A DNA stretch of 36,093 bases from assembly GCA_016288825.1 (NCBI GenBank), contig JAEELH010000190.1, positions 1 to 36,093 of the forward strand. Reading direction: 5' to 3'. Each line of letters begins with the position of its first letter. The first letter of the stretch is position 1. This stretch comes from Lachnospiraceae bacterium (lineage in GTDB: Bacteria > Bacillota > Clostridia > Lachnospirales > Lachnospiraceae). Of the stretch, positions 1,178-31,903 are shown in pieces. Both the position numbers and the translations under genes were made by a program. The notes beneath the pieces are model-generated. The model saw only the letters and a list, made by a program, of their open reading frames with translations. It did not search any database and had not been told where the DNA came from.

Positions 1178-2140
1178 TTATATTACGTAGAACCAAGCCT
1201 CGTCCTGTTCGAAATCGCCTGTATCAATGAGCTGGCCGTCCTTGCCTTTCATCACAAGCTCCTGATTCTTGATGGTGACTCTGGTCCCCTCGGGAACGGA
1301 AGCAGTGATAAATGCATTGGAGCCGATAACGGAGTTTTTGCCGATAACGGTCTTGCCGCCGAGGATGGATGCTCCGGAGTAGATAGTGACATTGTCTTCG
1401 ATGGTAGGGTGGCGCTTGACTCCGTGAAGGGCCTGACCTGCAGCGGTAGAAAGAGCGCCCAGGGTTACGCCCTGATATACCTTGACATGATCACCGATCT
1501 GGGTGGTAGAACCTATAACCACGCCGGTTCCGTGATCGATGAAAAAGTACCTGCCGATAGTAGCTCCGGGGTGGATATCGATTCCCGTAGCAGAATGCGC
1601 ATACTCTGTCATCATCCTGGGGATGAGGGGCACATTGAGAAGGAAAAGCTCATGTGCCAATCTATTGATGGTGGTAGCCAGCAGACCGGGATAGGAGAGT
1701 ATGATATCGTCCTTGTTGTAGGCTGCCGGGTCTCCATTGTAACTTGCGGTCAGATCCGTGTCCACAAGATCCCTGACATGGGGGATCTTATTGCAGAAGG
1801 TAAGTGCAAGGCAGTATGCCTGCTCCTCCATCTTGACGGGATCTGTATTTTCCGGTGCATCATACTTGAGCACGATGCCTATCTGCTTTGAGAGGTTGTA
1901 AAGCACATCCTCTATAAGTACTGTAAGATTACCCTGAAGGGAATAACTTTTATAAACCTGATCTCTGTAGTAGCCGGGAAAGACTATCCGAAGAAGCTTC
2001 TGGATGATGGTACGGATAGCCTCCTTATCAGGCTGGTTAAAGGGTGTCAGTGTATCGATGTCACGTCCGGATTCGTAGTCGGTCAAAATCGTATTGACCA
2101 GATGGCCGACTTCCTTGGTGCCGCTTTCTCTGCAAGTCAT
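1178..2140 (-). CDS. cysE: Serine O-acetyltransferase (EpsC/CysE-type, hexapeptide repeat)
   Basis: 320 aa; GIDIHPGATIGRYFFIDHGTGVVIGSTTQIGDHVKVYQGVTLGA left-handed beta-helix signature of serine acetyltransferase with long N-terminal helical domain. Confidence 0.9.
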   Translation of the reverse strand: MTCRESGTKEVGHLVNTILTDYESGRDIDTLTPFNQPDKEAIRTIIQKLLRIVFPGYYRDQVYKSYSLQGNLTVLIEDVLYNLSKQIGIVLKYDAPENTDPVKMEEQAYCLALTFCNKIPHVRDLVDTDLTASYNGDPAAYNKDDIILSYPGLLATTINRLAHELFLLNVPLIPRMMTEYAHSATGIDIHPGATIGRYFFIDHGTGVVIGSTTQIGDHVKVYQGVTLGALSTAAGQALHGVKRHPTIEDNVTIYSGASILGGKTVIGKNSVIGSNAFITASVPEGTRVTIKNQELVMKGKDGQLIDTGDFEQDEAWFYVI

Positions 2141-3401: not shown

Positions 3402-4694
3402 ATGGATATAAAAATGAGCAAAGTCCTTACGGGGCCGGCACCTTCGGTTTTTAATCTGGAGAGCTGTAATCTGAGCGGATTATCACTTCGGGAAGCCAAG
3501 CGGGAGATAGATCGCAGGCTTCTTGAGGGAGAGTGCGCCTTTCCGGCGGATCTGGCTCGGGGCGATACGGTTTTCCATAGGGTTATGAGAGAGTATGCCG
3601 GTCGTAGTGCGGATATCCTCAGCGGTGGTTATTCGGAGTCTCCGGTTGCTATCTTTGGAGACGGTGAGAAGGCCCGGGAGCTTGCAGAGGGACTTCGGAA
3701 AAGACATGTCTGCTGTGATGTATATCCGATTTCGGACTTAGAACCATCTGAGGATGGACCCAGGACTCAGGGAGATGTACTCAGGATCGGCAAGTGCACA
3801 TACCGCATGGCCGTGATCATGGAGCAGGATGCGACCGCCCGCAGTTTTGAGGTATTTGATACACTTCCGCTTCCGGAGACCTTCACTCATATGGGTGAAA
3901 AGCTTCATGTGCTGGAGTTTCAAATATACAGGGTGCCGGAGGAGAGGCTTTCGGATACGGAGTCCGAGGCGCAGAGTATCGTTTCGGACCTTATTGGCAA
4001 AAAGCTTCATGAGTGTATAGTAACTCCGGATTCGGACTACCTTAGATATTATCACTATGAGCTTTCAGGGGCGTCTGTTTACTTTGTTTGTAATCAGGGC
4101 ACCAAGGAGTTTAGGGGAAGGCTGATCATCGAGCATCCTATGCGCAATGCAGCCAATTCCCATCACGAAAAAAATGTCCGTCGTCTTTCTCTTAACACCA
4201 AGGCTATGGCGCCGGGGGTGGCATATACCTTTGATTCCTGGTCGGGGATCGTTGACAGGGCGGATTACATGGACGGTTCTTTTTCCATGACACTGGAGCC
4301 GGGCAAGAGCATCTTTCTTATTTTAGACAGGACTATTTCAAGTCTTGATGAGATAGGCAGGGCGCTGCCCAAGGATTATCTGGATCTTTTCCATTGCAGG
4401 GTCGTTCGCATGGAAGAGGACTGGAGTGCTGCGGAGGATGGCGGATCCGGTGCCAGCAGAGCTGTTTTTGAAGCAGAGAATAACAAGAGATACTTCCTGG
4501 AGATTGCCGATGCAGATGGCGGAGTGGAGTGCTTTGTCAACGGCGAGAGTATGGGAGTTCAGATATTACCGGCTTTTTGGTTTGATCTTAAAAAAGGAGT
4601 TAAGCCCGGACGCAACGAGCTGCTGATCGAAGTCATGTCAGAAGGCGGTAGCGGCAAGACGAGAGGCATCCGGCTTATAGAGTTTGGCGTATGA
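3402..4694 (+). CDS. Hypothetical protein; C-terminal beta-sandwich resembling glycoside hydrolase (GH2/GH106-like) tail domains
   Basis: 430 aa; C-term RYFLEIADADGGVECFVNGESMGVQILPAFWFDLKKGVKPGRNELLIEV matches the usual galactose-binding-like sugar-binding-domain pattern; no catalytic barrel visible. Confidence 0.55.
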   Translation: MDIKMSKVLTGPAPSVFNLESCNLSGLSLREAKREIDRRLLEGECAFPADLARGDTVFHRVMREYAGRSADILSGGYSESPVAIFGDGEKARELAEGLRKRHVCCDVYPISDLEPSEDGPRTQGDVLRIGKCTYRMAVIMEQDATARSFEVFDTLPLPETFTHMGEKLHVLEFQIYRVPEERLSDTESEAQSIVSDLIGKKLHECIVTPDSDYLRYYHYELSGASVYFVCNQGTKEFRGRLIIEHPMRNAANSHHEKNVRRLSLNTKAMAPGVAYTFDSWSGIVDRADYMDGSFSMTLEPGKSIFLILDRTISSLDEIGRALPKDYLDLFHCRVVRMEEDWSAAEDGGSGASRAVFEAENNKRYFLEIADADGGVECFVNGESMGVQILPAFWFDLKKGVKPGRNELLIEVMSEGGSGKTRGIRLIEFGV

Positions 4695-6637
4695 TAGAAG
4701 ATTATCTCAGGGCAAAAAGGATCGGAGACAGACAGGTGTCCAAGTCTCGTGGGCGTGGTGAGTATCCTTATCTCCCCGCGCTTGATGACATGGTTTCGCC
4801 TGCTGATATCGCATATGAGGAGCACGTGGGACTTTTGGAGATACCCACGGACCAGATTGTCGGGACCAAGACCTCCGGCAGGAGCAATGCTTTTTCCAGG
4901 GATTTCATGCCTGTACTGGAACCGGACAGTGAGTTTGCAACCAAGTGGTCGTCTCTTTATGATTCCCAGCTTCAGGAGGGTATCAGGGACGCTATCAAGG
5001 TCTATGAGTACCGCAGGCGCTTTTATGTCCAGGAGGGCAACAAGCGTGTCTCCATTACCAAGTATGTGGATGTATCCAGTATTTTGGGAGACGTTACCAG
5101 GGTTGTTCCCAAGTGGTCTGATGATCTTGACACCAGGATTTACTACGAGTTCCTGAAGTTCTACAGGGTCTGTCCTTTTTATGAGATCGCATTTACTCAG
5201 GAGGGTGGCTACGAGCGTCTGGCCGAGGTGATGGGTGAGAATCTTGAACAGACCTGGCACGAGGAGTCGGTAGAACTTTTGAGAAGTGCCTTCAGATCAT
5301 TTGAGAGAGTGTATTTTTCATGCCATGGTGATAAGCTTTCCATTACGGCGGGAGATGCTTTTCTGATCTATACCCAGGTATATGATGTCCCTTCCATCAT
5401 AGGTATGGACGAGGGACTCATGATCAAGCACATGGGCAAGCTTTGGACGGAATTTTTGGTTGCTGATACCGATGACAAGATCTCTTTGGTAGAGACTCCC
5501 GATGCCGGCAAAAAGGATACGGGTATCCTGGGCACGGGCTTTGGAAAAAGGACCAGAAATTATACGGCGGACAAGCCTCTTAAGATAGGCTTTATTTTCG
5601 ATAAAACACCTGATACATCAGCATGGAATTATTCTCATGAGCTGGGACGTAATCACCTGGCAGATTGTTTTGAGGGCAGAGTAAGTACGAAAGCGTACTA
5701 CTCCTGTGCTACGGATGAGGATGTCAGGCGTGCGGTTGATGATGCGGCTTCTGAGGGCTGCGAGGTTGTGTTCACGATATCACCCTCGCAGATGCCTGAG
5801 ACTCTTCGGAGTGCTCTGCATTTCCCAGATATCAGGTTTATGAACTGCTCCATCAATCTGTCACACACCAGTGTCAGGACCTACTACGGCAAGATGTTTG
5901 AGGCAAAGTATCTGATGGGCGCTCTGGCGGCAACAGCGGCGGAGAATCATCGCATCGGATATCTGGAGGGATACCCGCTTTACGGTTCCATTGCCAATAT
6001 CAATGCTTTTGCGGTAGGTGCAGCCATGGTGGACCCTAAGGCAGAGATCTATCTTTCCTGGTCAAGTCTTAAGATGGGAGAGTGGTGGCAGGAACAGATC
6101 ATCAAGGAGGGGATCAAGGTATTCTCCGGTCAGGATCTCATCGCACCGTCACAGACCTCCATGGAGCATCGTGAGTATGGCGTTTATATCCGTGAGGATG
6201 ACGGCAGTACAGTTAATCTTGCGACTCCGGTTTGGGACTGGGGACGCTACTACGAGCTTATAGTAAAGACCATTTTTGACGGAAGCTATGATCACCAGCC
6301 GGTGGATAAGACACGGGCACTCAATTACTGGTGGGGGATGGGTTCCGGAGTTATAGATGTTATAATGTCACAAAAGCTTTCCTATCAGACACGCAAGATG
6401 ATTACCGCCCTGCGTCACGGGATAGTCTGCGGTAACATACACCCCTTTGACGGTGAGTTGCGTTCAACCACAGATATCATACAGGGGCCGGATGGCGGAC
6501 GACTTTCCAATGATGCGATCATCCGTATGGATTGGCTTTGCGACAACGTTATAGGCGAGATACCCAGGATGGATGAGATCCGCGATGAGGCAAGATCCTC
6601 CATAGAGGTCAGCGGTGTTGTGGAGGACAAGAAATGA
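4691..6637 (+). CDS. ParB-like N-terminal domain fused to BMP/Med-family (PnrA-like) periplasmic-binding-fold domain, no signal peptide
   Basis: 648 aa; N-part LEIPTDQIVGTKTSGRSNAF...LQEGIRDAIKVYEYRRRFYVQEGNKRVSITKY (ParB-like GxRR-type box); C-part KIGFIFDKTPDTSAWNYSHELGRNHL...YYGKMFEAKYLMGALAA (BMP signature); ATGA overlap with upstream gene. Confidence 0.75.
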   Translation: MIEDYLRAKRIGDRQVSKSRGRGEYPYLPALDDMVSPADIAYEEHVGLLEIPTDQIVGTKTSGRSNAFSRDFMPVLEPDSEFATKWSSLYDSQLQEGIRDAIKVYEYRRRFYVQEGNKRVSITKYVDVSSILGDVTRVVPKWSDDLDTRIYYEFLKFYRVCPFYEIAFTQEGGYERLAEVMGENLEQTWHEESVELLRSAFRSFERVYFSCHGDKLSITAGDAFLIYTQVYDVPSIIGMDEGLMIKHMGKLWTEFLVADTDDKISLVETPDAGKKDTGILGTGFGKRTRNYTADKPLKIGFIFDKTPDTSAWNYSHELGRNHLADCFEGRVSTKAYYSCATDEDVRRAVDDAASEGCEVVFTISPSQMPETLRSALHFPDIRFMNCSINLSHTSVRTYYGKMFEAKYLMGALAATAAENHRIGYLEGYPLYGSIANINAFAVGAAMVDPKAEIYLSWSSLKMGEWWQEQIIKEGIKVFSGQDLIAPSQTSMEHREYGVYIREDDGSTVNLATPVWDWGRYYELIVKTIFDGSYDHQPVDKTRALNYWWGMGSGVIDVIMSQKLSYQTRKMITALRHGIVCGNIHPFDGELRSTTDIIQGPDGGRLSNDAIIRMDWLCDNVIGEIPRMDEIRDEARSSIEVSGVVEDKK

Positions 6638-7308
6638 AGATCCTTGTTCTGGCCGATGTAGAGAACAGGGGACTATGGGATTTTTACGAAAAGTCTAAGA
6701 CAGAGGATATCGATCTGATCATATCCTGCGGAGATCTGAATCCGGACTACCTGCAGTTCCTTGTTACCATGACGTCATTGCCCCTTCTGTATGTCAGGGG
6801 CAATCATGATAAAAAATATGATCATAATCCGCCGCTTGGGTGTATACCGATAGATGATACCATATATAATTTCCGGGGGCTTCGTATTCTGGGCCTGGGC
6901 GGAAGTATGCGTTATCATGATGGTACGGATATGTATACCGAGTCCGAAATGCGACATAGGATCAGCAAGCTTCGTAAGCGCATGATGATGACAGGCGGCT
7001 TCGATCTGCTGGTGACTCATGCTCCTGCAGCGGGATACGGTGATATGGAGGATCTGCCACACAGGGGTTTTCAGTGCTTCAATACTCTGATAGAAAAGTG
7101 GCGTCCGAAATATATGGTACATGGACATGTTCATAAGGAGTACGGGCATTTTGTCCGAAGTCGGACTCACGAGACAGGGTGCAGCATTATCAATGCTTAT
7201 GACGCTTATGTTTTGGAGGTTTCGGATGATGAGCATCCGCCCTATGGCAAGACGGGCTCACCGCTTTATGATATGTATATTTCTATAACCGGGAAGGGAA
7301 GGCAATGA
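6634..7308 (+). CDS. Calcineurin-like metallophosphoesterase
   Basis: 224 aa; ILVLADVENRG...IISCGDL...YVRGNHD...LLVTHAP...VHGHVHKEYG metallophosphoesterase motifs; ATGA overlap with upstream gene. Confidence 0.85.
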   Translation: MKILVLADVENRGLWDFYEKSKTEDIDLIISCGDLNPDYLQFLVTMTSLPLLYVRGNHDKKYDHNPPLGCIPIDDTIYNFRGLRILGLGGSMRYHDGTDMYTESEMRHRISKLRKRMMMTGGFDLLVTHAPAAGYGDMEDLPHRGFQCFNTLIEKWRPKYMVHGHVHKEYGHFVRSRTHETGCSIINAYDAYVLEVSDDEHPPYGKTGSPLYDMYISITGKGRQ

Positions 7309-8779: not shown

Positions 8780-8824
8780 CCGGATGTATAGATATATGGT
8801 TATAAGGGTATGAAAGGAAATATC

Positions 8825-10375
8825 ATGAGAAGTAATAAGGGTAGAAAAATAGGTGTTGTGCTTCTTGCGCTGCTGATGGCGTTTACGCTTTCGGCCGGAC
8901 AGATAGCCGTTTCACAGGCGGCATCTCCTTCACTCAAGAAGTCCAAGATCGGACTTACCGTGGGAGAAAAGTATAAGCTTACTGTCAAAAACCTTCCCAA
9001 GGGTGCTAAGGTCACATATTCCTCAAGTAAAAAGGCAGTTGCGGCTGTTTCCAAAAAGGGAGTTATCAAGGCAAAGAGTGCGGGCAAGGCAAACATCAAA
9101 GTCACTATTAAAAAGAAAAATAAGGTGATCAAAAAGCTTACCTGCAAGGTTACGGTAAGGGCAGTCGGCATTTCTGAGGACGAACCCTACACACCCAAAG
9201 TAGATCCTCTTTTTTCAGGAGATAAGAGTGCAAAGCTTGACGATGCATTTGTTAAGCAGACCATGAACTTCTCAATCGATCTTTTTAAGGCGAGTACGAC
9301 TTCGGATATAGCAGAGGGAGACAATGTTCTTATCTCATCACAGTCTGTTCTTACGGATATGATGATGGCGACAGGCGGTGCCAAGGGAACAAATCTCAGC
9401 GAGCTTGAGAAAGTTATGTGCGGCGATGTAGGCTTTGAGACCTTCAGGAAGTCTCTTTCGGACATGAATGCCAGGATGATCTATTCAGATCCGGTGAGAT
9501 TTCATATCGCTAATTCCGTCTGGATCAGAGATGATGCTGATAGGATACAGGTAAAGCAGGATTTCCTGGATCAGGGACTTAAGTATTATAACGCTGAGTC
9601 TTACCAGCTTCCTTTTGACGAGGCCATGGTGACAAAAGTCAATGACTGGGTCAATGACAACACTCTGGGAATGATCCCTAAACTTTTAGATAAGGTCCCC
9701 TCGGAGGATGATGTGATGCACCTTATCAATGCACTTGCTTTTGAAGGGGCGTGGGCTGATCAGTATGACGATTATCAGGTGCTTAAGGACCAGACATTTA
9801 AGTCCGGTTCCGGACAAGAGTACAAGGTCAACATGCTTTGTGACAAGCAGGGAGCATACCTCAAGGATGATAATGCGGTTGGCTTTACCAGACTTTACAA
9901 GGGCGGACAGTATTCATTTGTAGCTATCCTTCCCGATGAAAAGCTTGGGGTTGAAGGTTACCTTAAGTCCATGACCGGTGATTCATTTACAAAGTTCTAT
10001 AACAGCAGAGAGTACGGCGCAGATGTTTATACCAGACTTCCCGAGTTTAAGTATGATTACAATACAGAACTCAATGGCGCCCTCCAGAATATGGGTATCA
10101 AAGAGGCCTTTACACAGGCAGCTGATTTTTCGGGAATGGCTGATACAAAGTCCGGAGCACTTTATATAGGAAAGGTTGTTCACAAGACACATATCGAACT
10201 TGATAAGAATGGTACCAAGGCAGCGGCTGTGACAGATATTTCAATGGTAGACGCAACATCCATACAGGATCCTAAGCCTCAGATCAATATTTATCTCGAT
10301 AGACCTTTCATCTATGCTATAGTTCAGACAGAGACCGGTCTTCCGGTGTTTATGGGAGTGGTTAACAAGTTTTAG
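8825..10375 (+). CDS. Secreted serpin with N-terminal Big2 (Ig-like) domain
   Basis: Signal peptide; Big2-like SPSLKKSKIGLTVGEKYKLTVKNLPKGAKVTYSSSKKAVAAVSKKGVIKAKSAGKANI; serpin core NALAFEGAW, hinge NGTKAAAVTD, DRPFIYAIVQTETGLPVFMGVV; ATG 8825 preferred over 8810 (aaagga SD). Confidence 0.88.
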   Translation: MRSNKGRKIGVVLLALLMAFTLSAGQIAVSQAASPSLKKSKIGLTVGEKYKLTVKNLPKGAKVTYSSSKKAVAAVSKKGVIKAKSAGKANIKVTIKKKNKVIKKLTCKVTVRAVGISEDEPYTPKVDPLFSGDKSAKLDDAFVKQTMNFSIDLFKASTTSDIAEGDNVLISSQSVLTDMMMATGGAKGTNLSELEKVMCGDVGFETFRKSLSDMNARMIYSDPVRFHIANSVWIRDDADRIQVKQDFLDQGLKYYNAESYQLPFDEAMVTKVNDWVNDNTLGMIPKLLDKVPSEDDVMHLINALAFEGAWADQYDDYQVLKDQTFKSGSGQEYKVNMLCDKQGAYLKDDNAVGFTRLYKGGQYSFVAILPDEKLGVEGYLKSMTGDSFTKFYNSREYGADVYTRLPEFKYDYNTELNGALQNMGIKEAFTQAADFSGMADTKSGALYIGKVVHKTHIELDKNGTKAAAVTDISMVDATSIQDPKPQINIYLDRPFIYAIVQTETGLPVFMGVVNKF

Positions 10376-14577: not shown

Positions 14578-14597
14578 CAATGACTAAGGAGGTATTT

Positions 14598-15275
14598 ATG
14601 AAAAAGGCAATTCTTGCCACAAAGCTTGGCATGACACAGGTTTGGAATGCAGACGGCGAGCTGGTACCCGTTACCGTACTTGAGGCTGGCCCCTGTGTAG
14701 TAACACAGATCAAGACAATCGAGAACGATGGCTATGAGGCAGTTCAGGTTGGTTTTGGCGACAAGCCTGTTAAGGTAGTTACCAAGGATGCTGCAGGACG
14801 TAAGAGCGTTGCTCATCGTCACGGTATCAACAAGCCTGTTAAGGGTCATCTTGACAAGGCAGGTGTTTCACCTAAGCGTTATATCAGAGAGTTCCGCTTT
14901 GAGAACTCCGGCGAGTATCAGCTTGCTCAGGAGATCAAGGCTGACATCTTTGCTGAGGGAGATAAGGTAGATGCTACTGCAATCTCCAAGGGCAAAGGCT
15001 TCCAGGGCACTATCAAGCGTCTTGGACAGCACAGAGGACCCATGGCACATGGTTCCAAGTTCCATCGTCATCAGGGATCCAACGGATCATGCTCCACACC
15101 CAGCCGTGTATTCAAGGGCAAGGGAATGCCCGGACACATGGGATCAGTAAGAGTAACAATCCAGAACCTTGAGATCGTTCGTGTTGATGCAGAGAAGAAC
15201 CTGCTCCTTGTTAAGGGTGCGGTTCCCGGACCCAAGAAGTCACTTGTGACGATCAAGGAATCAGTTAAGGCGTAA
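14598..15275 (+). CDS. rplC: 50S ribosomal protein L3
   Basis: [16 protein letters not shown]...; start at 14598 after aaggagg SD (track start 14580 lacks an SD). Confidence 0.97.
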
Positions 15276-15307
15276 CGATTTTACAGATGATGAAAGGAGG
15301 AGCTATC

Positions 15308-15928
15308 ATGGCTCAGGTATCCGTATTTAATATGGACGGCAAGGAGGTCGGAAAGATCGATCTCGCCGATGCCGTTTTCGGAGTAGAAGTTAATGAACAC
15401 CTGGTACATCAGGCAGTGCTGCTTCAGCTTGCCAACAAGCGCCAGGGTACACAGAAGGCTAAGACCCGTTCCGAGGTTTCCGGAGGCGGACGTAAGCCTT
15501 GGAGACAGAAGGGCACAGGTCATGCTCGTCAGGGTTCAACCAGAAGCCCTCAGTGGACAGGCGGCGGTATGGTATTCGCACCCGTTCCCAGAGATTACTC
15601 ATTCAAGATGAACAAGAAGGAAAAGAGAGCAGCTCTTAAGTCTGCACTTTCCAACGCTGTTAATGAGAACAATCTCATCGTTGTAGATAAGCTTGAACTT
15701 TCCGAGATCAAGACCAAGGAGTTTGCAAAGGTTCTTTCAAACCTTGATGCAGCAAAGTCACTGGTAGTTCTTGGAGACATGAATGAAAATGTTGTTGCAA
15801 GCGCACGTAACATCCCTGATGTTAAGACTACACAGACATCCGAGCTCAATGTATTCGATGTACTTAAGTATGGCAAGGTAGTCATCACACAGGATGCTGT
15901 TAAGACTATTGAGGAGGTGTATGCATAA
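15308..15928 (+). CDS. rplD: 50S ribosomal protein L4
   Basis: [19 protein letters not shown]...[29 protein letters not shown]; start at 15308 after aaggagg. Confidence 0.97.
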
Positions 15929-16227
15929 TGGCAAACATTCAGTATTATGACGTCATTCTTCGTCCGGTAGTTACCGAGAAGAGCATGGGCCAGATGGGCG
16001 AGCGTAAGTACACCTTTTTCGTACATCCTGAGGCTAACAAGGTTATGATCAAAGAGGCTGTTGAGAAGATGTTCGACGGCGTCAAGGTTTCAAAGGTCAA
16101 CACCATGAACTGCGACGGCAAGAAAAAGCGCCGTGGCATGACCTACGGAAGAACAGCAAAGCAGAAGAAAGCTGTTGTATTCCTTACAGAGGATTCAAAA
16201 GAGATCGAGATCTTCTCAGGTCTGTAA
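15928..16227 (+). CDS. rplW: 50S ribosomal protein L23
   Basis: [15 protein letters not shown]. Confidence 0.97.
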
Positions 16228-16283
16228 AATCCTCATCCATACGCACAAAAGCGTGATATCAAATGTTGTGAAAGGAGTTAGAA

Positions 16284-17129
16284 ATGGGAATCAAAACATA
16301 CAACCCATATACACCTTCCCGGAGGAATATGACAGGATCAGATTTTTCCGAGATTACAAAGAAAGAGCCTGAGAGATCACTGCTTACTTCCAAGAAAAAG
16401 CATGCTGGTCGTAACAATCAGGGTAAGATAACAGTTCGTCATCATGGCGGCGGCAATCGTAACAAGTATCGTATCATCGATTTCAAGCGCAATAAGAAGG
16501 ATGGAATTCCCGCAAAGGTTGTTGGTATCGAGTACGATCCTAACCGCAGCGCTAATATCGCTCTTATCTGCTATGCAGACGGCGAGAAAGCATACATCCT
16601 GGCACCCGAGGGTCTTAAGGACGGCATGACCGTAATGAGCGGTCCTGATGCCGAAGTAAGGATCGGCAACTGCCTTCCTCTTTCAGAGATCCCTGTAGGT
16701 ACCATGATCCACAATATTGAGCTTCATCCCGGCAAGGGTGGCCAGATGGTTCGTGCAGCAGGTAATGCAGCACAGCTCATGGCTAAAGAAGGAAAGTACG
16801 CAACACTTCGTCTTCCTTCAGGCGAGATGAGAATGGTACCCATCGGCTGCCGTGCAACCATTGGTACTATCGGTAACGGAGACCACAACCTTATCAAGAT
16901 CGGTAAGGCAGGACGTAAGCGTCACATGGGTATCCGTCCTACAGTCCGCGGTTCAGTTATGAACCCCAATGACCATCCTCATGGAGGTGGTGAGGGTAAG
17001 GCACCTATCGGTCGTCCCGGTCCCTGCACACCTTGGGGTAAGCCGGCCCTTGGTCTTAAGACACGTAAGAAGCATAAGGCTTCTAACAAGCTCATCGTTA
17101 GAAGAAGAAACGGCAAGGGATTGAAGTAA
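16284..17129 (+). CDS. rplB: 50S ribosomal protein L2
   Basis: [25 protein letters not shown]...[20 protein letters not shown]. Confidence 0.98.
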
Positions 17130-17139
17130 GGAGGATAAC

Positions 17140-17421
17140 ATGTCACGTTCACTTAAAAAAGGACCTTTCGCTGATGAAAGCTTATTAAAGAAGATAGATG
17201 CACTGAATGCGTCTGGTGACAAGTCGGTTGTTAAGACCTGGTCCCGCCGTTCAACTATCTTCCCTCAGTTCGTAGGACACACCATCGCCGTACATGACGG
17301 TCGTAAGCATGTGCCCGTTTATATCACAGAGGATATGGTAGGACACAAGCTTGGAGAGTTCGTTGCTACCCGCACATATCGCGGACACGGCAAGGATGAG
17401 AAGAAGTCCGGCGCAAGGTAA
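17140..17421 (+). CDS. rpsS: 30S ribosomal protein S19
   Basis: [19 protein letters not shown]. Confidence 0.98.
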
Positions 17422-17447
17422 GTTCAGATTGAAAGGAGATTTTTGTC

Positions 17448-17834
17448 ATGGCTAAGGGACATAGAACCCAAATAAAGCGTGAGAGAAACGAAATTAAAGA
17501 TACACGCCCCAGCGCTAAGCTTTCCTATGCTCGCATTCCCGTAAGCAAGGCTTGCTTCGTTCTTGACGCAATCCGCGGCAAGGATGTTCAGAGCGCACTT
17601 GGAATTTTGGCGTATAACCCCCGGTATGCATCCGGTGTGATCGAGAAGCTCTTAAAGTCTGCGATCGCTAACGCAGAGAACAATAACGGTCTCAAGGCAG
17701 AGGATCTGTACATTGCAGAGTGCTATGCAAACAAGGGACCTACGATGAAGCGTATCCAGCCCAGAGCACAGGGCCGCGCATATCGTATCGAGAAGAGAAT
17801 GAGTCACATCACCATCGTTTTGGATGAGAAATAA
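17448..17834 (+). CDS. rplV: 50S ribosomal protein L22
   Basis: L22 signature [25 protein letters not shown]. Confidence 0.97.
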
Positions 17835-17845
17835 GGAGGTTATCA

Positions 17846-18511
17846 ATGGGACAGAAAGTTAATCCGCACGGGCTGCGTGTCGGCATCATAAAGGACTGGG
17901 ATTCCAGATGGTATGCCGAGAGCGAATTTGCAGATTACCTCAAGGAGGATCATGAGATCCGTACTTTCCTTAAGAAGAAGCTTTACGCTGCAGGTGTTTC
18001 AAAGGTTGAGATCGAGCGTGCTTCCGATAGGGTTAAGGTAGTTGTTCATACAGCTAAGCCCGGCGTTGTAATCGGTAAGGGTGGAGCAGAGATCGAGAAG
18101 ATCAAGAGCGATCTTGCAAAGCTTACCGACAAGAAGCTTGTTGTAGATATCAAAGAGGTTAAGCGTCCTGATAAGGATGCACAGCTGGTTGCAGAGAATA
18201 TCGCAGGTCAGCTTGAGAACCGTGTTTCATTCCGTCGTGCTATGAAGTCATGCATCAGCCGTTCCATGAAGGCAGGAGTTCTTGGTATCAAGACTCAGTG
18301 CGCAGGACGTCTTGGCGGTGCAGATATGGCTCGTACAGAGACATACAATGAGGGAACAATTCCCCTTCAGACACTTCGCGCAGATATCGATTATGGTTTT
18401 GCAGAGGCAGACACCACTTATGGTAAGGTAGGTGTTAAGGTCTGGATCTACAAGGGAGAGGTACTTCCCGGCAAGAAAAATGCCCAGAATGAGGAAGGAG
18501 GCAAAAACTAA
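17846..18511 (+). CDS. rpsC: 30S ribosomal protein S3
   Basis: [26 protein letters not shown] domain [11 protein letters not shown]. Confidence 0.98.
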
Positions 18512-18939
18512 TGTTAATGCCTAAGCGTGTTAAGCATCGTAAGCAGTTCCGTGGCACTATGACCGGAAAAGCGATGCGTGGAAACAAGATCACATTTGGT
18601 GAGTTCGGTATCGTATCTCAGGATCCTTGCTGGATCACAGCAAATCAGATAGAGGCAGCCCGTATCGCCATGACACGTCATGTAAAGCGTGGTGGTAAGG
18701 TTTGGATCAAGGTATTCCCTGATCATCCCGTATCAGCTCAGCCTGCTGAGACTCGAATGGGTAAAGGAAAGGGTGCTCTTGATTACTGGGTAGCTGTAGT
18801 TAAGCCCGGCCGTGTTCTTTTCGAGATCGCCGGCGTACCTGAAGATGTTGCAAGAGAGGCACTTCGCCTTGCTACACATAAGCTCCCCTGCAGATGCAAG
18901 ATAGTATCTCGCGCAGATTTGGAAGGCGGTGAAGCATAA
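18511..18939 (+). CDS. rplP: 50S ribosomal protein L16
   Basis: [15 protein letters not shown]...[24 protein letters not shown]. Confidence 0.98.
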
Positions 18940-19142
18940 TGAAGAGTAGAGATTTTGTAAAGGATCTGGACGCACAGTCCGTTGATGAGCTTAATGCTCG
19001 TCTCGTAGAGGCAAAAAAGGAACTTTTCAATCTGAGATTTCAGAATGCTACAAATCAGCTGGATAACACCGGAAGGATCCGTGAAGTTAGACGCAATATC
19101 GCAAGGATATCCACGGTACTTACCCAGAAGGCAAATCAGTAA
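18939..19142 (+). CDS. rpmC: 50S ribosomal protein L29
   Basis: [32 protein letters not shown]. Confidence 0.97.
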
Positions 19143-19166
19143 TCGGATTGAGAAAGGAGAAAAGCC

Positions 19167-19424
19167 GTGGAAGAAAGAAATCTTAGAAAGACCCGGGTGG
19201 GTATCGTTGTCAGCGATAAGATGGACAAGACCATCGTAGTTGCAGTTCGTGACAATGTTCGCCATCCTCTTTATAACAAGATCATCAAGAAGACTTATAA
19301 GCTTAAGGCTCATGATGAAGAGAATAACGCTCATGAGGGCGATACCGTTCGCGTTATGGAGACCAGACCACTTTCCAAGGACAAGAGATGGAGACTGGTT
19401 GAGGTCGTAGAGCGCGCTAAGTAA
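19167..19424 (+). CDS. rpsQ: 30S ribosomal protein S17
   Basis: [35 protein letters not shown] start. Confidence 0.97.
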
Positions 19425-19434
19425 GGAGGAAGAG

Positions 19435-19803
19435 ATGGTACAGCAGGAAAGCAGATTAAGGGTAGCCGACAATACCGGTGCGAAGGAGCTGCTTTGCATC
19501 CGTGTTATAGGCGGATCTACCAGGAGATATGCCAATATCGGCGATGTAATTACTGCCAGCGTCAAAGATGCAACACCCGGTGGTGTTGTTAAAAAGGGCG
19601 ATGTAGTTAAGGCAGTCGTAGTCCGCACCAAGAAGGGTGCACGTCGTAAGGATGGCTCATACATCAAGTTTGATGAGAATGCAGCAGTTATCATCAAGGA
19701 CGACAAGACTCCGAAAGGAACCCGTATATTTGGACCCGTAGCTAGAGAGCTTCGTGACAAGCAGTTCATGAAGATCGTATCTCTCGCTCCGGAGGTATTA
19801 TAG
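19435..19803 (+). CDS. rplN: 50S ribosomal protein L14
   Basis: [24 protein letters not shown]. Confidence 0.98.
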
Positions 19804-19812
19804 GAGGAAAAC

Positions 19813-20124
19813 ATGGCTACATCGAAGATTAAAAAAGGCGATATGGTTCGTGTTATCGCAGGTGCCGAGAAAGACAATGAAGGCAAGGTAATCGCAGTTG
19901 ATCACAAGAAGGGCACAGTTACTGTTGAGGGTGTTCGCATGATCAAGAAGCACACAAAGCCTTCTATGGCTAATCAGGCCGGCGGCATCATTGAGCAGGA
20001 AGGACCTATCGATATTTCCAACGTAATGCTTCTCGTCGGTGGTAAGACGACCCGTGTCGGATTCAAGATGGATGGTGACAAGAAGGTCCGCTACGCCAAA
20101 GCAACCGGCGAAGTGATCGATTAA
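19813..20124 (+). CDS. rplX: 50S ribosomal protein L24
   Basis: KOW motif [22 protein letters not shown]. Confidence 0.97.
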
Positions 20125-20137
20125 GGAGGATAGGGCG

Positions 20138-20677
20138 TTGAGTAGATTAAAAGAACAGTATCAGAGCGACATCGTCGCAAAGATGACATCTAAATTCGGC
20201 TATAAGAACGTCATGGAAGTTCCCAAGCTGGATAAGATAGTAGTTAACATGGGTGTTGGTGAGGCTAAAGAGAATCAGAAGATCCTCGAGGCTGCTATGA
20301 CAGACATGGAGGCTATCACAGGACAGAAGGCCGTTATTACTAAGGCTAAGAATTCTGTGGCTAACTTCAAGATCCGTGAGGGAATGGGAATCGGATGCAA
20401 GACCACACTTCGTGGCGAGAAGATGTATGAGTTTGCTGATCGTCTGATCAACCTCGCACTTCCCCGTGTCCGTGACTTCCGTGGAGTTAACCCTAACTCA
20501 TTTGACGGCAGAGGAAACTATGCTCTCGGAATCAAGGAGCAGATCATTTTCCCTGAGATCGAGTATGATAAGGTAGACAAGGTTCGTGGTATGGACATCA
20601 TCTTTGTTACCACAGCCAAGACGGATGAAGAGGCAAGAGAGCTGCTTAGGCTTTTCGGAATGCCTTTTGCGAAGTAA
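20138..20677 (+). CDS. rplE: 50S ribosomal protein L5
   Basis: [39 protein letters not shown] start after aaggagg. Confidence 0.97.
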
Positions 20678-20689
20678 GGAGGAGAGACC

Positions 20690-20875
20690 ATGGCAAAGAA
20701 GTCAATGAAGATCAAACAGCAGCGTAAGCAAAAGTTCTCCACCAGAGAGTACACACGTTGCAGAGTTTGCGGTCGCCCTCATAGCGTGCTCCGCAAGTAT
20801 GGCATCTGCCGCGTATGCTTCCGTGAGATGGCTTACAAAGGCGAGATCCCCGGTGTCAAGAAGGCTAGTTGGTAG
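20690..20875 (+). CDS. rpsN: 30S ribosomal protein S14, type Z (zinc-ribbon form)
   Basis: 61 aa with CRVC...CRVC zinc ligands. Confidence 0.97.
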
Positions 20876-20923
20876 ACCGGCGACACTATTTATCTATTTA
20901 ATAAAACAGGAGGAAAACATATC

Positions 20924-21325
20924 ATGACAATGAGTGATCCTATCGCAGATATGCTTACCAGAATCCGTAATGCCAATACTGCGAAACATGACACCGTAGA
21001 TATCCCCTCTTCCAAGATGAAGGTTGCTATTGCCAACATCCTTGTAGACGAGGGTTATATAGAGAAGTATGAGCTCCTTGATGAGGGTAACTTCAAGAAC
21101 ATCCATGTTACCATGAAGTATACCGGTCAGAAGAAGGACCGCATCATTACTGGAATCAAGCGTATCTCCAAGCCCGGACTTCGTATCTATGCCGGCAAGG
21201 ATGAGATCCCTTCAGTTCTCGGAGGACTTGGCGTAGCCATCCTTTCAACAAACAAGGGAATCCTTACTGATAAGCAGGCTAAGAAGGAGCAGGTTGGAGG
21301 AGAAGTTCTGGCTTTCGTTTGGTAG
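20924..21325 (+). CDS. rpsH: 30S ribosomal protein S8
   Basis: [18 protein letters not shown]. Confidence 0.98.
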
Positions 21326-21441
21326 ACCGAAAGCTTCGAGACAAATCGGAGCGATAGCGACAGATGAGTCCGAAGCGAGGTCGTTCTGTGAGATTAGCAA
21401 GCGCAAGCCGTAGGCACCGCGCGAGCTTAGCGAAGCAGAAC
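21325..21441 (+). other. Structured intergenic element between rpsH and rplF
   Basis: gacc...gcttcg / cgaagc..ggtc and gttctg/cagaac inverted repeats in a 163-nt spacer. Confidence 0.5.
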
Positions 21442-21488
21442 TTCCTTGTGAAAATAGTAGTATATAGGAAAAATAATAGGAGGCGAAG

Positions 21489-22028
21489 ATGTCACGAGTA
21501 GGAAGAATGCCTATCGCGGTACCTGCAGGCGTTACTGTAGATATTGCAGAAAATAACCATGTGACGGTAAAAGGACCCAAGGGAACTTTGGAGAGAACTC
21601 TCCCGTCCGAGATGGAGATCACAAAAGAGGGCGAGGAGATTATTGTTAAGCGTCCCAACGACCTCAAGAGAATGAAGTCGCTGCATGGACTTACCAGAAC
21701 CCTTATTTCCAACATGGTCATCGGTGTTACTGATGGTTATCAGAAGGTTCTGGAGGTTAACGGTGTAGGTTTCAGAGCTGCTAAGCAGGGTAAGAAGCTC
21801 ACACTTAACCTTGGATTTTCACATCCTGTAGAGATGGAGGATCCTGAAGGTATCGAGACAACAGTTGAGAACAACATCATCACTGTTAAGGGTATCGACA
21901 AAGAAAGAGTTGGCCAGTTTGCGGCAGAGATCAGGGACAAGAAGCGTCCTGAGCCGTACAAGGGCAAGGGAATCAAGTATTCCGATGAAGTTATCCGTCG
22001 TAAGGTCGGAAAGACCGGTAAGAAGTAA
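21489..22028 (+). CDS. rplF: 50S ribosomal protein L6
   Basis: [15 protein letters not shown]...[11 protein letters not shown]. Confidence 0.98.
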
Positions 22029-22043
22029 GGAAAGGAGTAAGAG

Positions 22044-22412
22044 ATGGTCAGCAAGAAATCAAAAGCTGTTGTTCGTGAAAATAAGCACAGAAGACTTCGC
22101 CATACGCTCTCCGGTACTTCTGAGAGACCCCGTATGTCAGTGTTCCGCAGCAACAATCATATGTATGTTCAGATCATTGATGATACAAAGGGTGGTACGC
22201 TGGTAGCTGCTTCTACAGTAGAGAAGGAAGTATCAGACGGTCTCAAGAAGACTAATGATACCGATGCTGCAAAGAAGCTTGGCGGCGTAATTGCAAAGCG
22301 TGCTCTCGATAAGGGAATCAAGACGGTGGTATTTGACAGAGGTGGTTTCATCTATGCAGGCAAGGTTGCCGCACTCGCAGATGCAGCCAGAGAAGCCGGA
22401 TTGGATTTTTAA
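22044..22412 (+). CDS. rplR: 50S ribosomal protein L18
   Basis: RPRMSVFRSNNHMYVQIIDD; FDRGGFIYAGKVAALADAAREAGL. Confidence 0.97.
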   Translation: MVSKKSKAVVRENKHRRLRHTLSGTSERPRMSVFRSNNHMYVQIIDDTKGGTLVAASTVEKEVSDGLKKTNDTDAAKKLGGVIAKRALDKGIKTVVFDRGGFIYAGKVAALADAAREAGLDF

Positions 22413-22425
22413 GGAGGAAGCATAG

Positions 22426-22938
22426 ATGAAGCGTTCAATGGTTGACGTAAGTCAGATAGAAGAATTAAAAGAGAATGTTGTTTCCATCAAGCGCGTTACC
22501 AAGGTAGTTAAGGGTGGACGTAATATGCGTTTCACCGCCCTGGTAGTTGTAGGAGATGAAAACGGACATGTTGGTGCCGGCCTCGGTAAGGCTACCGAGA
22601 TCCCGGAGGCGATCCGCAAGGGCAAGGAAGATGCTATCAAGCAGATGATCACCGTTAAGCTCGATGCGAATCACAGTATCACACATGATATAACCGGCAA
22701 GCACACAGGAGCTTCCGTACTTCTTAAGAAGGCTCCCGAAGGTACCGGTATCATCGCAGGCGGTCCTGCTCGTGCAGTCTGCGAGCTGGCAGGGATCACA
22801 AACATCCGTACAAAGTCCCTGGGTTCATCAAATAAGCAGAACGTTGTTCTTGCTACAATTGATGCACTTTCACAGCTCAAGTCACCCGAGGAAGTTGCTG
22901 CTCTCCGCGGCAAGTCTGTAGACGAGATCACCGGCTAA
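22426..22938 (+). CDS. rpsE: 30S ribosomal protein S5
   Basis: S5 signature [30 protein letters not shown]. Confidence 0.98.
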
Positions 22939-22949
22939 GGAGGTATAAG

Positions 22950-23132
22950 ATGGCTAGCAAACTTAAAATCACTCTTATCAAATCCCCCATCGGTGCAGTT
23001 CCGAAGAATAAAAAGACAGTTGAGGCTCTTGGTCTCCGTAAGATCGGTAAGACAGTTGAGATGCCTGATAACGATGCTGTCCGCGGGATGATACAGAGAG
23101 TTCGTCACTTGGTATCAGTAGAGGAAGTATAG
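22950..23132 (+). CDS. rpmD: 50S ribosomal protein L30
   Basis: 60 aa; [37 protein letters not shown]. Confidence 0.97.
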
Positions 23133-23142
23133 GAGGTATCCC

Positions 23143-23583
23143 ATGGATTTATCTAATTTACAGCCCGCTGAAGGCTCAAGATCCAGCGATAATTTCCGCA
23201 GGGGTCGTGGCCATGGAAGCGGTAACGGAAAGACCGCAGGTAAGGGACACAAGGGTCAGAAGGCTCGTTCAGGTGCTCCCCGTCTCGGTTTCGAGGGAGG
23301 TCAGATGCCTCTTTTCCGCCGTATTCCCAAGCGCGGATTTAAAAACAGAAATACACTCAACATTGTTGGCATTAATGTATCCGATCTTGAGAGATTCGAG
23401 GACGGTGCAGATGTAACTCTTGAGAGCCTTATCGAGTATGGTGTTATCAAGAACATCCGTGACGGTGTTAAGATCCTTGGTAACGGCAACCTTACAAAGA
23501 AGCTCAATGTAAGAGTTAACGCATACAGTGCCAGTGCAAAAGAGAAGATTGAGGCTGCAGGCGGAAAAGCAGAGGTGATCTAA
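23143..23583 (+). CDS. rplO: 50S ribosomal protein L15
   Basis: [13 protein letters not shown]...[24 protein letters not shown]. Confidence 0.98.
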
Positions 23584-24899
23584 TGTTTGAGACGATCGTA
23601 GGCGCTTTCAAAGTAAAGGATATGCGTAAGCGCCTGTTATTCACATTCCTTATGCTGATCGTTGTCAGGATGGGATCACAGCTTCCCGTTCCCGGCGTCG
23701 ATCCGGATGTCTTCAAGGAGATGTTTGGCAATGTCGGTGATTCCATGAATTTCTTCAATTCAATCACCGGTGGTTCTTTTGAGCAGATGTCTATCTTTGC
23801 ACTTAACATCACACCTTACATTACGGCATCCATTATCATCCAGCTCCTTACCATCTCTTTCCCCAAGTTGGAAGAGATGCAGAGAGATGGAGAAGATGGC
23901 CGCAAGAAGCTTACACAGATCACCAGATATCTTACTATCGGCCTTTCTGTGATCGAGGGTCTTGCAATGGGCATCGGCTTTGGTCGTAATGGCTACCTTA
24001 CAGAATACAACGCACTTTATGTTATAATTCTGATCGCTGCACTTACTGCAGGTTCTGCAGTACTTATGTGGATAGGCGAGCGCATTACCGAAAGGGGTGT
24101 GGGCAATGGTATTTCTATCGTCCTCATTATCAACATCCTTTCAAGACTGCCTCAGGATCTGAACTCTCTCTTCGAGCAGTTCGTAAGCGGCAGATCTGCA
24201 GCACCCGCTGTTCTCGCAGCAATTGTCATCATCGGCATTATCGTAGGACTTGTTATCCTGGTAGTTATCCTTCAGTGTGCAGAGCGTAAGATCCCTGTAC
24301 AGTATTCCAAGAAGCTCCAGGGCAGCCGTTCATTCACTGGCGCACAGTCCACATATATACCTCTTAAGGTCAATACCGGTGGTGTTATCCCTGTAATCTT
24401 CGCACAGTCGATCATGCAGACACCCGTTATCATTGCAGCTCTTGCAGGTGCAAACAACGCAGGCGGTTTCTGGGGTGGAGTTCTTCGCGGACTTTCCCAG
24501 AGCAACTGGTTCAACAGAGATAACTGGATCTACTCTATCGGTGCGGCAGTTTACATTCTTTTGATCATTGCTTTTGCATATTTCTACAGCTCCATTACTT
24601 TCAATCCTTTGGAGATTGCAGACAATATGAAAAAGAGTGGCGGATTTATCCCGGGTATCCGTCCCGGTAAGCCCACCAGTGAGTATCTGCAGACAGTTCT
24701 TTCACGCATCATCTTCATCGGTGCGGTTGGCCTGTCAATAGTTTCAATCCTTCCGATCATGCTCAACGGCCTTTTCAAGGCTTCAGTATCCTTCGGTGGA
24801 ACATCCATCATCATTATCGTGGGTGTTGTAGTTGAGACATTAAAGCAGATCGAGTCACAGATGATGGTCAGGAATTACAAAGGATTCCTGTCAGAATAA
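23583..24899 (+). CDS. secY: Preprotein translocase subunit SecY
   Basis: 438 aa, 10-TM SecY; GIRPGKPTSEYLQTVLSRI. Confidence 0.98.
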   Translation: MFETIVGAFKVKDMRKRLLFTFLMLIVVRMGSQLPVPGVDPDVFKEMFGNVGDSMNFFNSITGGSFEQMSIFALNITPYITASIIIQLLTISFPKLEEMQRDGEDGRKKLTQITRYLTIGLSVIEGLAMGIGFGRNGYLTEYNALYVIILIAALTAGSAVLMWIGERITERGVGNGISIVLIINILSRLPQDLNSLFEQFVSGRSAAPAVLAAIVIIGIIVGLVILVVILQCAERKIPVQYSKKLQGSRSFTGAQSTYIPLKVNTGGVIPVIFAQSIMQTPVIIAALAGANNAGGFWGGVLRGLSQSNWFNRDNWIYSIGAAVYILLIIAFAYFYSSITFNPLEIADNMKKSGGFIPGIRPGKPTSEYLQTVLSRIIFIGAVGLSIVSILPIMLNGLFKASVSFGGTSIIIIVGVVVETLKQIESQMMVRNYKGFLSE

Positions 24900-24906
24900 A
24901 GGTATT

Positions 24907-24934
24907 AAAGTCACACAGATCACTGTGTGGCTTT
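24907..24934 (+). other. Hairpin between secY and adk
   Basis: AAAGTCACACAG-atca-CTGTGTGGCTTT, 12-bp stem with one G-U; no downstream T-tract. Confidence 0.6.
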
Positions 24935-24956
24935 ATACTATGATACAGTATTATAA

Positions 24957-25616
<660 letters not shown>

Positions 25617-25621
25617 GACCA

Positions 25622-25888
25622 ATGCGATTTACCATGGCAAGGTCCCTTGCCGGACATGACAAGGACAGGTTATATGTTGTCACCGGGACACAGGGCGATA
25701 TGCTCAGTCTCGTGGACGGGAGGATCCGAACCTTGGATCGGCCCAAGTATAAAAAGAAAAAGCATCTGCAGATGGTGATCCATATTCCGGCTGAAGTATC
25801 TGACATAGTCGGAGACGCAGAGGTCTGGGAGGATCATCTGGTGCGCAAGGTTATCAAAGAGTACACGAGACTTACTGGTGATGCATAA
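25622..25888 (+). CDS. KOW-domain RNA-binding protein (L14e-like)
   Basis: 88 aa; [46 protein letters not shown], located before infA as in other Firmicutes. Confidence 0.85.
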
Positions 25889-25910
25889 AGGGCATCGGAA
25901 AGGAATTCAA

Positions 25911-26129
25911 ATGTCAAAGACAGATGTAATTGAAGTAGAGGGTAAGGTTATTGAAAAGCTTCCCAACGCCATGTTTTCTGTTGAGCTTGAAAACGGCCAT
26001 CAGATCCTGGCTCATATAAGTGGTAAGCTTCGTATGAACTATATACGTATCCTTCCCGGCGACAAGGTTACAATTGAGATGTCACCCTATGATCTGTCCA
26101 AGGGCAGGATCATCTGGAGAGATAAGTAA
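25911..26129 (+). CDS. infA: Translation initiation factor IF-1
   Basis: [53 protein letters not shown]; start moved to ATG 25911. Confidence 0.97.
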
Positions 26130-26149
26130 AATAATCTAAAATAAAACTC

Positions 26150-26178
26150 TTGACAGCAGGAGCGCAAACGCATATAAT
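26150..26178 (+). promoter_or_regulatory. Consensus sigma-A promoter upstream of rpmJ
   Basis: TTGACA-17 bp-TATAAT, both hexamers exact consensus. Confidence 0.9.
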
Positions 26179-26208
26179 ACTATGCGTATGCGCTCTGCTT
26201 TTCTTTTT
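26156..26208 (+). terminator. Intrinsic-terminator-like hairpin overlapping the promoter
   Basis: gcaggagcgcaaacgcata-taatac-tatgcgtatgcgctctgc then ttttcttttt; near-perfect 18-19 bp stem. Confidence 0.7.
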
Positions 26209-26271
26209 GAGTGCATAAAAAATCGTTTCTAATTGGATCAAGCCAGGGCGAGGAAGGAGGAGAGATTTCTT

Positions 26272-26385
26272 ATGAAAGTCAGATCGTCTGTAAAACCTAT
26301 GTGCGAAAAGTGCAAGGTAATCAAGCGAAAAGGCAGCATACGGATCATTTGTGAGAATCCGAAGCATAAGCAGAGACAGGGATAG
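26272..26385 (+). CDS. rpmJ: 50S ribosomal protein L36 (absent from supplied ORF track)
   Basis: [37 protein letters not shown], 37 aa; ggaaggagg SD region upstream. Confidence 0.97.
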
Positions 26386-26448
26386 TAACTATACCTGTAA
26401 CCTTTATTGTTTTTTGTTTAAATTATTAAGAAAGAAGGAGAATTACAC

Positions 26449-26820
26449 ATGGCTCGTATTGCAGGTGTAGATTTACCCAGAGAAAAAAGAGTCGAGATCG
26501 GCCTTACATACATCTATGGTATCGGCAGAGTAACTGCCGGCAAGCTTCTTGATATTGCAGGTGTAAGCCCTGATACCAGGGTTAAGGATCTCACTGACGA
26601 AGAGGTAAAGAAGATTTCAGACGCCATCGAGAGCGAGGGCGTTGAGGTAGAGGGTGATCTCCGCAGAGACACCGCACTTAATATCAAGAGACTTCAGGAG
26701 ATCGGATGCTATCGTGGTATCCGTCATCGTAAGGGACTTCCCGTTCGCGGACAGAAGACCAAGACTAACGCACGTACCCGTAAGGGACCCAAGCGTACTG
26801 TTGCTAACAAGAAGAAGTAA
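26449..26820 (+). CDS. rpsM: 30S ribosomal protein S13
   Basis: [26 protein letters not shown]. Confidence 0.98.
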
Positions 26821-26846
26821 TCTTACGATAGAGAAAGGATTTTGAT

Positions 26847-27239
26847 ATGGCTAAACAAGTTAAAAAGACAACGAGGAGGCGTGAGAAGAAAAATGTTGAG
26901 CACGGTCAGGCTCACATTCAGGCTTCCTTCAACAATACTATTGTAACTATTACCGATGCTGCAGGTAACGCTCTTTCATGGGCAAGCGCCGGCGGTCTTG
27001 GTTTCCGTGGTTCCAGAAAGTCTACTCCCTACGCTGCACAGGTAGCGTCAGAGACAGCAGCTAAGGCAGCTCTTATTCACGGCCTTAAGACTGTAGATGT
27101 TTTTGTTAAGGGACCCGGCTCAGGTAGAGAGGCTGCTATCCGTGCGCTTGACGCATGTGGTATCAGGGTTCTGTCCATCCGTGACGTAACACCTGTACCT
27201 CACAACGGATGCCGTCCGCCTAAGCGTAGAAGAGTCTGA
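26847..27239 (+). CDS. rpsK: 30S ribosomal protein S11
   Basis: [44 protein letters not shown]. Confidence 0.98.
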
Positions 27240-27260
27240 TCAGGGAAGGAGTAGATAGAA

Positions 27261-27854
27261 ATGGCAGTTAATAGAACACCTATTTTAAAGAGATGCCGCT
27301 CCCTCGGATTGGAGCCCGCATATCTCGGAGTGGACAAAAAGTCCAAGCGTCAGCTGACCCGTTCCAACCGTAAGGTTTCAGAGTACGGTCTTCAGCTTAA
27401 GGAAAAGCAGAAAGCAAAGTTCATCTACGGAGTACTTGAGAAGCCTTTCCGCAATTACTATAAGAAAGCAGACCGCCAGAAGGGTATGACAGGTGAGAAC
27501 CTTATGCGTATCCTTGAGAGCCGTCTTGACAACGTTGTTTTCCGTCTGGGTCTTGCTCGTACACGTCGTGAGTCCCGTCAGGTTGTTGGACATAAGTTCA
27601 TCACTGTTAATGGCAAGGTTGTTAACATTCCTTCATATCAGGTTAAGCCCGGTGATGTTATCGAGCTTCGTGAGAGTGCAAGGAGCATGACACGTTTCAA
27701 GGAGATCATGGATGCCACAGGCGGACGTATCATCCCTGAGTGGCTTGATTATAACGAGGATAAGTTCCAGGGAACAGTTAAGGAGCTTCCTAATCGTAGC
27801 CAGATCGACGTTCCGGTTGACGAGATGCTTATCGTCGAGTTGTATTCTAAATAA
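27261..27854 (+). CDS. rpsD: 30S ribosomal protein S4
   Basis: S4 domain LESRLDNVVFRLGLARTRRESRQVVGHKFITVNGK. Confidence 0.98.
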   Translation: MAVNRTPILKRCRSLGLEPAYLGVDKKSKRQLTRSNRKVSEYGLQLKEKQKAKFIYGVLEKPFRNYYKKADRQKGMTGENLMRILESRLDNVVFRLGLARTRRESRQVVGHKFITVNGKVVNIPSYQVKPGDVIELRESARSMTRFKEIMDATGGRIIPEWLDYNEDKFQGTVKELPNRSQIDVPVDEMLIVELYSK

Positions 27855-27915
27855 GAGTTGACGGTTTAGCGTTTCTACATAAGAAACCACCTAATTAAGC
27901 CAGGAGGATAACCGA

Positions 27916-31119: not shown

Positions 31120-31122
31120 TAG

Positions 31123-31902: not shown

Positions 31903-31903
31903 T

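Follow-up and report, generated by a model that had tools for sequence, protein, structure and literature searches.

A ParB/Srx-fold and BMP fusion protein, predicted to be cytosolic, is paired with a calcineurin-like phosphoesterase in Lachnospiraceae and other gut bacteria

The window analyzed here is a 36,093-nucleotide stretch of DNA from a Lachnospiraceae bacterium (assembly GCA_016288825.1, contig JAEELH010000190.1). It encodes a 648-residue protein combining a ParB/Srx-fold domain, a helical region, and a BMP ligand-binding domain, and the gene for a calcineurin-like metallophosphoesterase starts inside its stop codon (ATGA). The features of the locus are as follows:

3402-4694, forward strand: upstream gene, 430 aa, ATGA overlap with the fusion gene; C-terminal part jelly-roll-like
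4691-6637, forward strand: fusion gene (ParB/Srx-fold, helical, BMP), 648 aa, ATG start, without signal peptide
4808-5110, forward strand: predicted ParB/Srx-fold domain, approximately residues 40-140 (AlphaFold2, Foldseek, hhalign)
5033-5047, forward strand: EGNKR (residues 115-119) at the position of the GxxR P-motif, invariant in 56 N-terminal domains
5126-5476, forward strand: predicted helical domain, approximately residues 146-262 (AlphaFold2 model)
5567-6568, forward strand: BMP (PF02608) ligand-binding domain, residues 293-626
5624-5626, forward strand: W312, the equivalent of AtzT Tyr45, W in 104 of 106 family members
6634-7308, forward strand: calcineurin-like metallophosphoesterase, 224 aa, ATGA overlap with the fusion gene (Pfam Metallophos, structural model, conserved adjacency)

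Shortly downstream of the fusion gene lies a core housekeeping region, a cluster of ribosomal protein, SecY, adenylate kinase, and RpoA genes (14580-28875, forward strand), and the fusion gene is not on an obvious mobile element. A mobile-element origin was also rejected: the gene occurs at full length in two plasmid records, one of them a 0.9-Mb Collinsella record that looks chromosomal, as rplA, nusG, and tuf flank the pair, and in one 10-kb faecal record labelled as phage. The upstream gene (3402-4694) was rejected as part of the module as it is not conserved beside the pair; its product matches only the rhamnosidase jelly-roll end, weakly, with no catalytic domain recognized. Elsewhere, the window encodes a serine acetyltransferase-like protein (1181-2140, reverse strand; EpsC score 151.8 against a cut-off of 150, and below the CysE cut-off), a 521-residue protein that joins a serpin (protease inhibitor) to a Big_2 domain of the bacterial Ig-like type (8810-10375, forward strand), and ABC-transporter genes for an ATPase, two permeases, and a solute-binding protein (29689-34092, forward strand). 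Two antisense reading frames (4559-5260 and 6775-7236, reverse strand) were taken as overlap artefacts.

The first-pass annotation described the fusion protein as intracellular, without a signal peptide or lipobox, and this description holds. A frame check gave an open frame of only 661 residues around the gene, with about a dozen codons between the upstream stop and the ATG, so an earlier in-frame start could lengthen the protein by no more than a dozen or so residues and would not bring in a signal peptide. The protein starts with MxxDYxxAxKxG, which is kept across the fusion family. No 19-residue window near the N-terminus of the protein or its 105 relatives reaches membrane-like hydrophobicity (peak of 1.52 within the first 60 residues), and no signal peptide, lipobox, or transmembrane segment was found in these 106 members. 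Based on the short upstream frame, the conserved N-terminus, and the lack of a hydrophobic segment, the fusion protein is almost certainly cytosolic.

The N-terminus has no significant match in Pfam, NCBIfam, PHROGs, or PADLOC. Nevertheless, the ParB/Srx-like segment proposed earlier from the sequence is recovered when residues 1-290 are modelled by AlphaFold2 together with 55 relatives in the alignment (pLDDT 91, with the ParB/Srx-fold part above 90). The best Foldseek matches of this model in the PDB are Noc (E 7e-5), ParB, sulfiredoxin, PadC, and SbnI. Together with profile homology to stand-alone ParB-like proteins, these matches predict a ParB/Srx (ParB-CTPase) fold. The protein does not appear to be a canonical ParB, as Pfam gave neither a PF02195 match nor a significant helix-turn-helix domain match, and no ParA-like family was seen among the recurrent neighbors, which were clustered rather than annotated. 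Plant sulfiredoxin (6ky4) superposes on the model at 2.8 A over 88 columns. The catalytic cysteine of sulfiredoxins sits in an (F)GGCHR motif, whereas the fusion protein has EGNKR at the related position and lacks this cysteine, and so does not qualify as a sulfiredoxin. Within EGNKR, G116 and R119 are invariant among the 56 N-terminal domain sequences. The GxxR P-motif with its arginine is needed for nucleotide binding by the ParB-CTPase fold; the motif alone does not show such binding, as 17 of 28 purified ParB-fold proteins bound no nucleotide in vitro (PMC12704722). The model also places a helical region, absent from the first-pass annotation, as a separate unit between the ParB/Srx and BMP domains; its counterpart in one stand-alone relative (L112) matches DUF4032 at 24.6 bits against a cut-off of 23.8.

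The first-pass annotation read the two domains correctly and overlooked both the stand-alone ParB-like relatives and the adjoining phosphoesterase, the latter being the best lead on what the fusion protein does. The phosphoesterase matches Pfam Metallophos and its model (pLDDT 92.5) has a calcineurin-like fold, nearest to MPPED2 (E 5e-10), followed by aq_1956, TT1561, purple acid phosphatase, Dbr1, and Rv0805. Four metal motifs (GD, GNHD, H, and GHxH) do not vary within the family and are shared with the class III phosphodiesterases MPPED2, Rv0805, and TT1561. However, identity to MPPED2 is only 17-18%, and the motif-I histidine of the class III enzymes (DxH) is replaced, motif I being DxE or DxV in the family and DVE in the window copy. 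The phosphoesterase also matches PADLOC PDC-S10, a predicted anti-phage candidate family (E 2.6e-17), and the PDC-S10 model may hold unnoticed calcineurin-like enzymes adjoining ParB-like proteins. In one genome in which no ParB-like gene was found (G061; L126, 1501-3593), an ATGA overlap couples the phosphoesterase to an adenine deaminase-like gene, named from its sequence, which offers one hint at the substrate of the phosphoesterase.

Among 107 full-length fusion loci, found in Lachnospiraceae and relatives, Erysipelotrichaceae, and Coriobacteriia, the phosphoesterase is adjacent in 102. It lies downstream on the same strand in 97 and is convergent in five (L023-L027), which indicates that the adjacency survived inversion. 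The co-directional genes are within 30 bp of each other in 84 of the 96 pairs analyzed and overlap by exactly 4 bp in 36 of the 96. Neighbor clustering revealed neither a conserved permease beside the fusion gene nor a third conserved partner, as no other neighbor family exceeded 18 genes, at 17 loci at most.

Residues 1-290 also retrieved stand-alone ParB-like proteins of approximately 320-340 residues from 300 genomes of the phylum; there are also shorter forms of 125 and 208 residues. Profiles of the fusion N-terminal domains and the stand-alone proteins align with an hhalign probability of 98.5 (E 2.8e-15, 140 columns), the latter having DGNHRVAAAK in place of EGNKR and weak profile matches to ParB_N (E 0.006) and SerK (E 1.3e-4). 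Several match 4Fe-4S ferredoxin domains; in L112 (1429-2445), L117 (1480-2472), and L134 (466-1410), the ParB/Srx-like protein ends in a double [4Fe-4S] ferredoxin-like domain and lies beside the phosphoesterase. A Sir2-like deacetylase gene follows in L112, L113, and L117. All of the first eight stand-alone loci adjoin the same calcineurin-like phosphoesterase, here 37-40% identical. Because this enzyme accompanies stand-alone ParB-like proteins that end in a ferredoxin-like domain or in nothing, the conserved unit, judged from sequence, is the phosphoesterase with a ParB/Srx-fold protein, the predicted sensor domain being exchangeable. In the phosphoesterase tree, the stand-alone-associated and phosphoesterase-only copies split from the fusion-associated copies with support of 100/99. 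One gain or one loss of the BMP domain would account for the data, with the reservation that the midpoint root is arbitrary and the bootstrap had not fully converged. The Coriobacteriia copies nest among those of Lachnospiraceae, which suggests transfer between phyla.

The two genes also co-occur across genomes. In the sample of 300 genomes, the phosphoesterase is present in 17, a ParB-like protein in 18, and both in 16; among 146 genomes of the order, the corresponding numbers are 44, 45, and 43. The hypergeometric probabilities of this co-occurrence are 1.9e-23 (phylum sample) and 2e-33 (order) by genome and 1e-17 by genus, with shared ancestry taken into account up to the genus level only. 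Linkage alone does not explain the pattern, as both genes are present on different contigs in several genomes of family f8 and in G403; G043, G394, G405, and G436 are examples of such unlinked co-occurrence. Conversely, the phosphoesterase is found without a ParB-like protein in the whole genus g277 and in G359, G390, G061, and G479. In g277 (in the order of G161), the ParB-like gene has been lost from an otherwise similar gene order (DUF-phosphoesterase-nth). The phosphoesterase can thus function by itself, and a regulatory role suits the ParB-like protein better than that of an essential subunit.

The BMP/Med-type domain expected in the C-terminal half is confirmed by Pfam (PF02608, residues 298-569; 70.4 bits against a gathering cut-off of 24.1, E 1.7e-19). 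The nearest solved structures, Brucella 3s99 (E 6e-29) and AtzT (6pi5, E 8e-27), contain the same domain with the stacking aromatic kept as W312, but are exported, single-domain proteins that bind guanine or adenine, whereas the fusion protein is multidomain and predicted to be cytosolic. The guanine ligand of AtzT is sandwiched by Tyr45 and Trp194, with further contacts from Ser97, Glu165, Asn218, Asn220, and the Phe98 backbone (PMC6834077). In an alignment of the 106 fusion-family members, Gly replaces Glu165 in 100, a counterpart of Trp194 is missing in 104, the Phe98 position is Pro in 74, the Ser97 position is S, A, or T, and the Asn220 position is Asp in 95 (D482 in the window). This does not amount to an AtzT-type purine site: what is left of it is a single aromatic, S/A/T in place of Ser97, and Asp in place of Asn220. 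The pocket residues do not support guanine or adenine as the ligand by homology, and the nucleoside-type ligand suggested by the first-pass annotation should not be assumed, as the guanine-holding Glu and Trp are lost. Both are retained in L024 and L025, from families outside Lachnospiraceae. The fusion family has its own set of pocket residues (S310, N385, C386, S387, K406, and D556). The cleft is under selection but re-tooled, so that it probably takes a specific ligand rather than simply guanine or adenine.

We propose, as a reading that seems plausible if somewhat short of probable, that the two genes form one cytosolic sensor-enzyme module in which the ParB/Srx-BMP protein would control the phosphoesterase. 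Closure of the BMP clamshell on a cytosolic small molecule would alter the ParB/Srx domain, either in its shape or in its nucleotide-bound state; the ParB/Srx domain would dock on the phosphoesterase and raise or lower hydrolysis by this enzyme of a nucleotide-like phosphodiester or phosphoester. The intracellular ligand-sensing switch suggested by the first-pass annotation is likewise a hypothesis. In other clostridia, an Fe-S domain replacing BMP on the same core would give a redox rather than a metabolite input. The module reading draws on the adjacency, the co-occurrence of unlinked genes, the pairing with stand-alone ParB-like proteins, the ParB/Srx fold, and the family-specific BMP pocket. 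It is weakened by the genomes that have the phosphoesterase without a ParB-like protein, the missing motif-I histidine, and the insufficiency of GxxR alone as a sign of nucleotide binding. ParB-CTPase folds bind CTP, ATP, or GTP and are fused to many regulatory and enzymatic domains (PMC12704722). In a more general and more tentative form, the pair may be an intracellular signalling module in which a dedicated phosphodiesterase is under the direct control of a ParB/Srx nucleotide switch whose sensor is exchangeable (Fe-S in some clostridia, BMP in gut Lachnospiraceae and Coriobacteriia).

Alternatively, the two proteins could be opposing enzymes, with the ParB/Srx domain acting as a small-molecule kinase of the SerK/SbnI type, the phosphoesterase removing the phosphate, and the BMP domain either selecting the substrate or detecting it. 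SerK and SbnI share the fold and a related motif position with the fusion N-terminus, SbnI superposes on the model at 2.6 A over 91 columns (Foldseek), and the stand-alone relatives, besides their weak match to SerK (5x0e), have a DGNHR resembling the kinase DGHHR. However, the fusion family has EGNKR, the catalytic glutamate that the kinases have outside the motif was not identified, and ParB-fold proteins are diverse, with many not being kinases; on balance, we consider this unlikely. It is also improbable, in our view, that the phosphoesterase is a housekeeping enzyme of nucleotide salvage merely co-regulated with a separate purine or nucleoside sensor acting, for example, on DNA. The closeness of the BMP domain to guanine- and adenine-binding proteins, the coupling to adenine deaminase in G061, and the persistence of the phosphoesterase alone in some genomes fit such a scheme, but the AtzT purine contacts are mostly lost, and the tight co-occurrence when unlinked and the pairing with two ParB-like architectures favor direct cooperation. 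An anti-phage defence pair, as the PDC-S10 match might suggest, is very unlikely given the largely lineage-bound inheritance, the stable gene pairs, the absence of recognized defence-island neighbors, and the lack of a PADLOC match for the fusion protein. An ordinary ABC-transporter substrate-binding protein, as the Pfam Bmp match and the annotation of a Collinsella relative would have it, is barely tenable for a protein whose 106 family members lack export and membrane signals, which is fused to a cytosolic fold, and beside which no permease is conserved.

The fusion protein resembles the ParB-CTPase fold fusions described by Kaljevic et al. (2025; PMC12704722) in its fold, GxxR P-motif, and lineage-specific fused domain, with no parA partner recognized. 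That survey was seeded with PF02195, to which the fusion family gives no significant match, and its main text mentions neither a BMP fusion nor a phosphoesterase partner. Among open-licence papers, we found no description of a BMP-ParB protein paired with a metallophosphoesterase, nor did open-licence papers yield anything on a BMP family with a metallophosphoesterase in Lachnospiraceae or on DUF4032. The pair thus appears to be undescribed so far, while the theme of ParB-fold domain fusions with varied NTP specificity has already been published (PMC12704722).

The first-pass annotation expected similar Lachnospiraceae proteins under generic BMP names, and the NCBI entry for the Collinsella relative, "BMP family ABC transporter substrate-binding protein," fits this expectation; that name is very likely a misannotation, which the present analysis exposes. 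BMP proteins are usually seen as exported parts of transporters, whereas here the domain appears as a cytosolic, receptor-like unit on a predicted nucleotide-switch fold. In common gut bacteria, the resulting BMP-ParB/Srx protein goes together with a single enzyme, and the pair offers a concrete, testable case for roles of the ParB-like fold outside DNA segregation.
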